Assembly (NCBI GenBank): GCA_022394755.1
Contig: JAGFCA010000020.1
Span: 62,001-126,000, forward strand
Direction: 5' to 3'
DNA length: 64,000 nucleotides
DNA from: Candidatus Poribacteria bacterium
GTDB taxonomy: Bacteria; Poribacteria; WGA-4E; WGA-3G
Shown: positions 97 to 24,580 of the stretch, piece by piece
Position numbering within the stretch: the stretch's first letter is position 1
How the letters are laid out: every line of letters begins with the position of its first letter
Program-made: the position numbers and the translations under genes
The notes under the pieces: model-generated
The model's input: only the letters and a program-made list of their open reading frames with translations
Database searches by the model: none
What the model was told of the DNA's origin: nothing

Positions 97-1143
97 ATGA
101 CAAACCAAAAGGTTCGATTAACTGCAACAGTAAAATGTGCTGGCTGAGCATCTAAGCTTGCTCCGGGAGAGCTTGAACATATCTTAGATAACTTGCCGAA
201 ATCAACAGACCCAAATTTACTTGTAGGAACAGAGACATCTGATGATGCTGGTATCTATCGTCTTTCAGGTGATCTTGCATTAGTTAATACAGTAGATTAT
301 TTCACACCTATAGTTGATGACCCCTATACATTTGGAGCTGTAGCAGCAACTAATTCCTTAAGCGATGTGTATAGTATGGGAGGTAAACCGAAAACAGCAT
401 TAAATATTACCTGTTGGCCCAAAGCTGATCTCGAATTATCAATCCTCGGTGAAATCATCAAAGGGGGTGCGGATAAAGTCGTAGAATCAGGTGCTGTTCT
501 TATCGGTGGACATACTGTAGATTCACCAGAATTGATGTATGGATTAGCAGTTACAGGGATCGTTCATCCTGAGAAATATATAAAAAACTATGGAGCACAA
601 CCGGGAGATGTCTTAATACTAACGAAGAATCTTGGGGTCGGTATACTAACAACAGGGTTAAAATTTGACAAAATTAGCGATAAAATTTTACCTCAAGTTG
701 TTGAATCTATGACAAGATTAAACGCTTCGGCTTCAGAGGTTATGTTGAAGTATAATGCCACCGCTTGTACAGATGTAACGGGGTATGGTCTACTTGGCCA
801 TGGCTCTGAAATGGCATCAGGAAATGATATGGGTCTAATGATTAACAGTAAATCTGTTCCATTTTTCGCAGATGCTCCATCTCTTGTTGCACAAGATACA
901 TACACCCAAGCGTATCTGGCAAATACGGCATTTCTATCTGATAAGGTGACATTTGAGTCAACAGTAACTGAAGAGATGCGGCATATTATGATGGAAGCAG
1001 AAACATCTGGCGGACTTCTTTTTGCTCTTCCTTCTCAGAATGCGGACTCTGCTATAGAAGAACTACATTCTGGTAATTGTCCAGAAGCGGCAATTATTGG
1101 AGAGGTAGTAAATTCTGATAGTGCTCACATTCAGGTGTATTAA
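97..1143 (+). CDS. selD: Selenide, water dikinase SelD, selenocysteine-containing
   Basis: Makes selenophosphate from selenide and ATP, the selenium donor for selenocysteine and selenouridine. The frame open from 193 lacks the N-terminus of the family. Reading back in the same frame to ATG 97 restores 32 residues and crosses a single TGA at 145-147, in the context CAG-U-ASK. Counted from ATG 97 the UGA codon is residue 17 and the next lysine is residue 20, matching Cys17 and Lys20 of E. coli SelD. The restored length of 348 aa is normal for the family. A small hairpin (GCTC / GAGC, loop 164-168) lies 16 nt after the UGA, where a bacterial SECIS apical loop is expected. There is no clear Shine-Dalgarno before ATG 97. 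pyrE follows 22 nt after the stop. Sec-containing SelD is an established variant of the family. Confidence 0.93.
145..172 (+). promoter_or_regulatory. In-frame UGA (Sec17) and candidate bSECIS hairpin of selD
   Basis: The TGA at 145-147 is followed by AAGCT (154-158) and AGCTT (170-174), which can pair, or alternatively by an inner 4-bp helix GCTC (160-163) / GAGC (169-172) with loop CGGGA. The apical loop lies about 17-21 nt from the UGA, inside the usual bSECIS spacing. The helix is short, so the fold is plausible rather than proven. Confidence 0.6.
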
Positions 1144-22742: not shown

Positions 22743-23156
22743 TATATCTCCGTTTAAATTTGTTAGTTTTGTATCCTGAATGATTAATGTTGATTGAGGA
22801 TAAAGTATATTGCATCATATCTGTCATGTCAATATGATTTTGGTGTTGGGGTATGTAGAGTCTTGGCATAAATATCACCCAGTCTTTGTGTTCGGATACA
22901 ATAATTATTAGTTGTTTGTTTCGGTTTTGCTTTCTTGTATAAACTGTGTAATCCGTGAAGTTGTTAATATTAATCTTTTTTAAATGATGCCACATTCACG
23001 CAAACCTGCACGAAGCAATTTTACGAACCCTGACTCTGTAAGGGTTTATAAAATTTTAAGCTCCAATTCTTCGTGAATCACGTATGTTAAAATAAAGTTA
23101 GCTGAAGTGTGTATAGAGTACTTATATGTTTTTCATAGGAAATGTATTGGCACATA

Positions 23157-23173
23157 GCACTCCGCTGGAGTGC
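23157..23173. repeat. REP-like palindrome, copy 1
   Basis: Perfect 7-bp stem GCACTCC / GGAGTGC with loop GCT. Shares the core CCGCTGG with the palindrome 33 bp further on. Resembles REP or IS200/IS605 end hairpins; no transposase is nearby. Confidence 0.55.
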
Positions 23174-23205
23174 TTGCTCTGCATGTATCGGTTTGCTATA
23201 GACAT

Positions 23206-23224
23206 ATCACACCGCTGGTGTGAT
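23206..23224. repeat. REP-like palindrome, copy 2
   Basis: Perfect 8-bp stem ATCACACC / GGTGTGAT with loop GCT. Same CCGCTGG core and loop as copy 1 but different outer arms, so the arms have covaried. Confidence 0.55.
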
Positions 23225-23509
23225 GAAATCCACCCGGTGAGGAGAATTCCTCAAGAGCTCTATCAATGACGAAACACATACAAAAACTTTACTCACCCAT
23301 TTGCAATAATCTATTTTGACAACTCTGATTGTGTATGTTAAAATTATATGTCTATGGATTGAAATCCTAAACAGTTTATTGTAATTTTTCAATGTTGCTA
23401 TGGAAACTTTGTTTGATTACAAGTGTATAATATACAAGTAAATGATGACTACCAACTTATATTATGTTTTATAATTACGAACAAATATACTGTTTTTAAA
23501 GGAAATATA

Positions 23510-24580
23510 ATGAGATTTATTTTTTTGTTATTTATAATGCTTCAATTTATTTTTCTTCCTCTTGGGTTTGCCCAAGAAAGCTGAGGTGCCTGAAGTAACC
23601 CCACAATTCCTCAAGGTGGGGGAAGTGAAGTTAGGTTAACTTCAGATAATAAGAGATTTCAAGCATCTGTTAGTACACGCGGATTTAACGCCCAGGGTGG
23701 ACACCACGAAGCCAAAGGTTTATCTCCTTCTGGTGATGTAATCTTAGTTCCATTACACCGTCATGAAGTGGAGTTGAGTGTAGTCCGATTTGATTTTGGC
23801 TTAAAATATCATATCAATAACAATTGGCGTTTGGAAGCTGGATTTCCTTATGAAATAAAAAGTCAAAATGCGAGCATTGTTGAGGTAGAACCTGCTGATA
23901 GCGTGCAGAAAGAGGCAATGTTACGTAATCAAGACATCCATCATCGGAACGAAACCTACCGTGGTATTTCAGATATGGATTTTCTGATAGGGTATTCTAC
24001 ACATGGCATATTAATGCAACATGATACACTATTTGCTAAGTTTGGGACGACTCTGCCATTTGGTAAAACCGAAGAAGATCCGTGGATACTTGGGAACAAT
24101 GGGTTGAAGCATCTGCATATCCAATTTGGTACGGGTACATTTAATCCGATAGGTGATCTTCGGTACAGTTTGCCATTTTATGGTGGTTTAAGTGGGAATG
24201 TTAGTGTAAGAGGCAAGTATCCCTTCTATGAAAATAGTAAAAACTATCGTGGTTCTTGGGATGTTACTTATACTGCTGGATTAAATTACATAGTCAATAA
24301 ATGGTTATCTCTTCAGTCAAGTTATCTTGGATTGTATCAGTCCTATGCTCATTGGTCAGGTGAAATTGACATCAATACAGGTTTGCGATTTAGTATGGCA
24401 TCGTTGGGAGCATCGATTGCAACACCCTATAATGTGCCATTGTCGATAACAGTTATGTTTCCTATACAACAGGAAACACTTTATGATGATAGTGTCAGAT
24501 TGTCAGATGGAACATATGAAGAGAACGATGCATTTAAATTGGGTATGTTAGTTTCTGTGATGGCGTTATATTCCTTTTAG
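23510..24580 (+). CDS. Predicted double-selenocysteine (UxxU) outer-membrane beta-barrel protein
   Basis: The uninterrupted frame from 23768 lacks a secretion signal. Extending back in frame to ATG 23510, which has AAAGGAAA 6 nt upstream, gives a 356-aa protein with a clear signal peptide (hydrophobic 3-20, cleavage likely after GFA at 19-21). Directly after it comes ESUGAUSNPTIPQGGG, crossing TGA at 23582-23584 (residue 25) and 23591-23593 (residue 28). The rest is rich in alternating aromatic/hydrophobic strands and ends ALYSF, typical of an outer-membrane barrel. The two UGAs are spaced like a C-x-x-C redox or metal motif. No other disruption exists, and a 6-bp GC-rich hairpin lies 5-28 nt after the second UGA. 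The same window encodes a UGA-containing SelD. Alternative: a pseudogene with two opal codons, less likely. The substrate is unknown. Confidence 0.8.
23582..23621 (+). promoter_or_regulatory. Two UGA codons and candidate bSECIS hairpin
   Basis: TGA at 23582 and 23591 are followed by the stem CCCCAC (23599-23604) / GTGGGG (23616-23621) with an 11-nt loop. The loop begins 11 nt after the second UGA and 20 nt after the first, in the range of bacterial SECIS elements. It is the most GC-rich stretch of an AT-rich neighbourhood. Confidence 0.6.

Follow-up and report, generated by a model that had tools for sequence, protein, structure and literature searches.

Candidatus Poribacteria assembly GCA_022394755.1 carries, on contig JAGFCA010000020.1, a gene that appears from its sequence to encode a double-selenocysteine outer-membrane barrel protein of sponge-associated Poribacteria. 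We analyzed 64,000 nucleotides (nt) of this contig (positions 62,001-126,000, hereafter the window), in which the gene runs through two UGA codons, UGA1 and UGA2, followed by two hairpins, SL1 and SL2. Our favored reading, to which we assign a probability of roughly 0.5, is that SL1 as a spacer and SL2 with its SelB-binding loop form one composite element that serves both UGAs, each decoded via the ordinary route of SelB and the selenocysteine (Sec) tRNA (tRNA-Sec). What we observe is that the UGAs are conserved, that Cys occurs at UGA1, that the machinery is encoded, that both hairpins carry codon-level selection and compensating changes, and that the SL2 loop is conserved.

Two in-frame UGA codons and the selenocysteine machinery

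The frame from 23510 to 24580 is open when TGA is treated as a residue, which happens at two codons only, 23582 and 23591 (Table 1). The product begins with a signal-peptide-like N-terminus, continues with the peptide QESUGAUSNP (U, Sec), and ends in a predicted outer-membrane beta-barrel. A second copy of the gene on another contig of the same genome is 57% identical (locus L010) and has both TGAs and both hairpins. We searched 84 genomes of the phylum Poribacteria and detected homologues in 66 of them; nearly all full-length copies contain one or two internal TGAs. The homologue set comprises 126 loci, including 114 motif-bearing loci from the genome search, and all 12 named homologue loci are from Candidatus Poribacteria. 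Five fetched loci without the motif were dropped: L128 (truncated where its contig ends), L136 (NNP), and L137 to L139 (fragments or frameshifted). The last four are broken or fragmentary gene copies; L136 retains UGAU, and its frame is interrupted downstream.

Among the 114 genome-search loci, the two positions read TGA/TGA in 77, TGT/TGA in 29, and TGC/TGA in 8; across all 126 loci, the counts are 89 TGA/TGA and 37 Cys/TGA. The residue that replaces UGA1 is always Cys (37/114), UGA2 is never replaced, no homologue having Cys there, and the peptide ESUGAUSNP is almost constant. No Cys-x-x-Cys homologue was found among the 84 genomes using a 33-sequence profile, whose four weak partial matches (E 1e-6) contained no stops, and a plasmid search for homologues found none. 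Because 21 of the 126 loci terminate at TGA, UGA still acts as a stop and has not been globally reassigned.

The machinery for Sec insertion is encoded in the same genome. Its tRNA-Sec scores 78.5 bits, with a UCA anticodon assigned by ARAGORN, and selB lies just before tRNA-Sec on the same contig. Across the phylum, tRNA-Sec was detected in 71 of 84 genomes, selB in 75, and a selD-family match in 80 (75 above the cut-off). We infer selenium insertion at both UGAs. If the TGAs were not Sec codons, the gene could be a pseudogene, be subject to ordinary read-through, or start downstream at GTG 23768, and the list of open reading frames (ORFs) under translation table 11 indeed gives just a 270-residue ORF from that GTG. 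However, the signal peptide precedes the TGAs, homologues are spread over 66 genomes, the motif peptide is near-constant, Cys is the sole residue to replace a UGA, and the Sec machinery is encoded. A reading without Sec is already largely refuted, and we consider it highly improbable.

Two hairpins downstream of the UGAs

For the RNA comparison, the 126 loci were reduced to 111 unique regions, of which 77 have both UGAs and 34 have a single UGA with Cys at UGA1. Pairing was scored in an alignment of 64 of the 77 double-UGA regions, obtained from the 74 sequences unique at that length by removing eight members of an insertion clade, L090, and L132. Selection at the codon level was assessed by resampling synonymous codons with the amino acids fixed. 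As a reference, we used the rule for the bacterial selenocysteine insertion sequence (bSECIS) given in PMC13188914: a loop of 3-9 nt with G within its first two positions, a stem of 4-16 base pairs (bp), a loop 16-37 nt from the UGA, and a minimum free energy (MFE) of -7.5 kcal/mol or below.

SL2 is the best conserved element. Its pairs are formed in 97.9% of cells in the 64-sequence alignment, no slid register comes near that figure, and three pairs are changed on both sides. One C-G to U-A change alters neither encoded amino acid (GTC/TTG to GTT/TTA). In the distant family f4, GAG..GCC stands in place of GAA..ACT, which replaces A-U by G-C. In 110 of the 111 regions, the apical loop reads G[U/G]N, and a standard pair nearly always closes it, while the codon that spans it varies (AGT 98, GGT 7, AGG 5, GTT 1), and with it the encoded residue. 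The codon-constrained energy of SL2 was -6.8 against an expected -0.1 in double-UGA genes and -7.3 against -0.4 in single-UGA genes, values that codon resampling seldom reached. In 110 of 111 regions, SL2 agrees with the published loop length, stem length, and G[G/U] loop; its MFE is -7.5 kcal/mol or below in 84 of 111. We also scanned for any hairpin obeying the bSECIS loop rule with an energy of -5 kcal/mol or below, using 31 selD regions as controls. At 38-60 nt, such hairpins were present in 75/77 regions counted from UGA1, 73/77 counted from UGA2, 34/34 single-UGA regions, and 0/31 selD regions; at 16-37 nt, the corresponding counts were 26/77, 29/77, 12/34, and 19/31.

The codon that follows UGA2 (23594-23596 in the window) is AGY in 111/111 regions, and AGY makes up about 42% of Ser codons in the gene body; the base following UGA2 is always A, and that following UGA1 is always G. 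The invariant AGY raised the idea that UGAAG in the UGA2 context pairs with the 3' arm CUUCA of SL2. We rejected this pairing by inspection, because in L133 and L135 both arms of SL2 have changed in concert (GAGG/CCUC), so that SL2 is preserved and the pairing with UGAAG is lost.

SL1 can be drawn in two registers, H1 and H2, that share a 3' arm. A preliminary description of this stretch had proposed the H1 stem as one recoding hairpin serving both UGAs. Its coordinates agree with ours: the TGAs lie at 23582 and 23591, CCCCAC at 23599-23604 faces GTGGGG at 23616-23621 across an 11-nt loop (AAUUCCUCAAG, 23605-23615, starting AA), and the stem begins 5 nt past the second UGA and 14 nt past the first. 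In E. coli fdhF, the spacing from UGA to stem is 11 nt. Numbered from the first base of UGA2 (23591 = 0), H1 pairs 6-13 with 25-32, and the window has the inner six of these pairs.

The folding energy of 23582-23641 is no better than that of dinucleotide shuffles (z -0.23) and is uninformative by itself. Under synonymous resampling, fewer than 1% of samples reach the stability of the window's H1 helix (P = 0.007), and the plain MFE of the same stretch gives P = 0.10. Double-UGA genes have a mean codon-constrained H1 energy of -7.1 kcal/mol against +2.4 kcal/mol expected. The H1 pairs are formed in 81.3% of cells (slid registers, 34-57%), and two pairs are changed on both sides, in 28 cells compared with 11.3 in shuffles. 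The codon-level selection and the compensating changes indicate that the H1 helix is real. The description had named folding and homologue comparison as its check: the comparison bore out the helix, which is retained far above codon-level expectation where homologues have kept the UGAs, and folding energy did not. We find no support for the further reading that this one hairpin is the entire recoding signal. Its inner 5 bp are disrupted in 22 of the 77 double-UGA regions, the loop departs from the published rule in length and in lacking G at its first two positions, a register shifted by 8 nt is about equally supported, and SL2, which the description had overlooked, is far better conserved and carries a bSECIS-type loop.

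The shifted register, H2, pairs positions 14-21 with the same 3' arm (25-32), so that its 5' arm lies 8 nt downstream of that of H1. H2 pairs are formed in 79.7% of cells, with 26 cells changed on both sides, and at its pair 20-26, a wobble-wobble pair, we counted seven changes among Watson-Crick types on the tree. The inner 5 bp of H1 are intact in 55/77 double-UGA and 6/34 single-UGA regions, and those of H2 in 32/77 and 27/34, respectively. In the eight insertion-clade sequences, H1 is partly broken and H2 is perfect or nearly so (8 bp). The downstream register of the window is shifted once more (uucctca[AGG]tggggga, -5.4 kcal/mol), which places its loop 20 nt past UGA2. Judged from these alignments, the register of SL1 is not fixed between homologues.

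Table 1. Window coordinates of the gene, its UGA codons, the hairpin arms, and selD
Feature	Position	Strand	Comment
Coding sequence	23510-24580	+	ATG 23510, TAG 24578-24580; 356 aa through two TGAs
UGA1, first putative Sec codon (residue 25)	23582-23584	+	Cys codon in paralogue clade
UGA2, second putative Sec codon (residue 28)	23591-23593	+	TGA in 114/114 genome-search loci with motif
SL1 register H1, 5' arm CCCCAC	23599-23604	+	14 nt past UGA1, 5 nt past UGA2
SL1 alternative (H2-like) 5' arm UUCCUCA	23607-23613	+	13 nt past UGA2; partner 23617-23623
SL1 3' arm GUGGGG..	23616-23624	+	Common to both registers
SL2, UGAAGUUA-GGU-UAACUUCA, 8 bp	23626-23644	+	A-U pair closes SECIS-type apical loop G[G/U]N; putative SelB-binding site
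selD (hidden Markov model match)	115-1041	+	One in-frame TGA (CAGUASK)

A proposed composite element for two UGAs

Only six bases separate the UGAs, and one downstream element must therefore serve both, as the preliminary description had argued. The single-UGA paralogues keep both hairpins, so the element serves UGA2 alone in those genes, and UGA1 shares it in the others. Under the composite reading, both UGAs of the N-terminal Sec-Gly-Ala-Sec motif of the mature protein would be read by SelB and tRNA-Sec, with SelB binding the G[U/G] loop of SL2. SL1 (about 23599-23624), a conserved hairpin, would serve as a spacer: by folding, it would take up most of the 33-42 nt that lie between the UGAs and SL2 and leave an effective distance of about 15-16 unpaired nt. 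Counted linearly to the second pair of SL2, UGA1 is 42 nt and UGA2 is 33 nt away. When we folded regions lacking the insertion, with 11 nt assumed to lie inside the ribosome and the remainder free to fold, folding of SL1 outside the ribosome left an unpaired distance to SL2 of 15.8 ± 2.3 nt for UGA1 (67 regions) and 15.1 ± 2.2 nt for UGA2 (65 regions); L132 was excluded, and 3 of 76 UGA2-state folds without SL2 were not counted.

Several observations weigh against this reading. The agreement of the effective distances is partly a consequence of the 8-nt offset between registers. The SL2 loop lies 40-46 nt from UGA2 and 49-55 nt from UGA1 in linear distance (40 and 49 nt in the window), compared with the published 16-37 nt, and the upper bound is exceeded from UGA2 in 110 of 111 regions. 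SL2 of the window alone reaches -6.3 kcal/mol, short of the published -7.5, and L132 has both UGAs and no good SL2. In 62 of the 77 double-UGA regions, a G is also found within the first two positions of the H2 loop; SelB may therefore bind SL1 itself in many species, that of the window among them. Finally, a covariance model of SL2 (R1) matched only the two family members in its own genome, with the next matches at E > 2. No independent gene thus confirms SL2, and on the same search we rejected SL2 as a shared element used genome-wide.

The case for SL1 itself as the bSECIS depends on the register. In H1, the strong codon-level selection in double-UGA genes and the compensating changes at two pairs would be explained, the apical loop lies 20 nt past UGA1 and thus inside the published range, and the excess of intact inner pairs in double-UGA over single-UGA regions is what would be expected if H1 matters for UGA1. 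The link is strong in raw counts (55/77 against 6/34), with just two losses of UGA1 on the tree. From UGA2, the H1 loop is only 11 nt away, outside the range, and only 3-5 nt separate the codon from the start of the stem. According to PMC4513850, a SECIS has to unwind in its lower part to enter the 30S mRNA tunnel, and H1 should therefore be melted when UGA2 occupies the A site. Since H1 is also broken in 22 of 77 regions that retain both UGAs, we regard it as improbable that H1 is the bSECIS for both and that SL2 has another role. A canonical bSECIS in register H2, with SL2 as an accessory or stalling hairpin, would have its loop 19-20 nt past UGA2 and 28-29 nt past UGA1, both inside the published range. 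The seven changes at pair 20-26, the 8-bp H2 of the insertion clade with its broken H1, the intact inner pairs in 27 of 34 single-UGA regions, and the near hairpins at 16-17 nt that most selD genes of these genomes have all point the same way. Yet only 32 of 77 double-UGA regions retain all inner 5 bp of H2, selection for H2 is weak there once the codons that determine H1 are held (-6.7 against -5.5; median P = 0.36), and the H2 loop is CCA, with no G, in 20 of 111 regions. Reliance on H2 would also leave the near-invariant G[U/G] loop of SL2 unexplained, and we consider it rather unlikely.

The two registers could also be used in turn. SL1 would be in H1 while UGA1 is decoded; the 9-nt step of the ribosome would then melt the H1 5' arm, and the 3' arm would re-pair as H2 for UGA2. 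The tandem 5' arms on one 3' arm, offset by 8 nt where the UGAs are offset by 9 nt, fit such a switch, and the equal effective distances to SL2 in both states suggest it. Synonymous samples that reach the same stability in both states together are rare (median 3.7% in double-UGA genes), and in the single-UGA clade H2 is retained and H1 mostly lost. Resamples of single-UGA genes likewise seldom attain joint stability (1.0%), however, so this is not special to double-UGA genes. The H1 and H2 states show no significant trade-off on the tree (median P = 0.51), on which UGA1 was lost only twice, many genes have only one good register, and little further selection acts on H2 once H1 is accounted for, making a switch distinctly unlikely. 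Its fuller form is a ribosome-driven, two-state SECIS that presents an arm 12-14 nt past UGA1 (H1) and then an arm 11-13 nt past UGA2 (H2) on a shared 3' arm, with SL2 held at an effective distance of about 15 nt for both decodings; we offer this model tentatively and think it unlikely. If true, a two-state SECIS would use strand exchange to reset its own recoding signal.

Relation to known selenoproteins and further features of the gene

Measured against the bSECIS consensus of PMC13188914, SL2 shares its position as a coding-region hairpin downstream of a UGA and the N1-G[G/U]-N-N2 loop, and the SL1 registers lie at allowed distances (H1 from UGA1 only). The system differs in that the SL2 loop is 40-55 nt away, a conserved hairpin lies in between, and two UGAs share SL2. 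If the composite reading is true, the bSECIS model would widen to include a two-hairpin form whose SelB-type loop lies 40-55 nt away. The preliminary description had called double decoding by one element unusual in bacteria, and this needs limiting: the same source lists predicted bacterial UxxU selenoproteins, namely a Prx-like protein, a metal-binding protein (NF041115), and FmdB, and UxxU Prx-like sequences are also reported in PMC2398784. These proteins have the same two Sec residues, and hence UGAs nine bases apart, which means that double decoding is not in itself a novelty. Their family names indicate redox or small regulatory proteins, whereas the window protein is a predicted outer-membrane barrel with no Pfam match above the cut-off and no NCBIfam match. 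The MtrB/PioB-family barrel GSU2204 (NF041027; PMC13188914) is likewise a predicted outer-membrane barrel selenoprotein, but with one Sec. Our literature search, which left most subscription journals outside its reach, found no paper on Poribacteria selenoproteins; within the same reach, none combined SECIS, two UGA codons, and bacteria. The papers covered by this search gave no explanation of how one bacterial SECIS at the mouth of the ribosome serves two UGAs in quick succession. The family offers a natural set for this question: one gene with the same two hairpins occurs in 77 double-UGA and 34 single-UGA variants, so that the effects of spacing, register, and loop can be told apart. It would also add a selenoprotein family, an outer-membrane barrel with N-terminal Sec-x-x-Sec that no NCBIfam model matches.

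An AlphaFold model built from 33 sequences is a beta-barrel of about 12 strands (mean predicted local distance difference test score, 76; predicted template modeling score, 0.74), with the Sec segment in a low-confidence N-terminal tail. Searching this model with Foldseek, we found that the closest solved folds are FapF and the COG4313/Phenol_MetA_deg outer-membrane channel (PDB 4rl8 and 5o65-5o68; E 1e-8 to 1e-10), although sequence identity to these structures is just 10-13%. The match to 4rl8_A (E 4.8e-10; template modeling scores, 0.51/0.66) indicates the same barrel fold as a COG4313-like channel. Scanning the window protein against Pfam gave weak barrel matches, all below the cut-offs and none of them to PF13557, and against NCBIfam no match; PF13557 matches only 7 of 33 family members at E <= 0.01. 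Histidines at residues 65, 83, 85, 144, 145, 201, and 203 are invariant across the 33 homologues, which suggests that the barrel may bind or transport metal.

The window also encodes selD, about 22.5 kb from the barrel gene, and the two genes share a contig, tens of kb apart, in several related genomes. The window selD has a near hairpin, GCUC-CGGGA-GAGC, 16 nt past its UGA. In three of the 31 selD regions, those of the deep-branching loci L140, L141, and L143, a near hairpin is followed by a GUU-loop hairpin 33-36 nt past the UGA that is much like SL2; these genes differ in having one UGA and a distance inside the published range. The two-hairpin form may be older than the UGAU barrel family. 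In the intergenic stretch at 23156-23225, two short near-palindromes, GCACTCCGCTGGAGTGC and TCACACCGCTGGTGTGA, are visible by eye; a repeat search with a minimum length of 12 did not return them, and they are possibly a repeat family.
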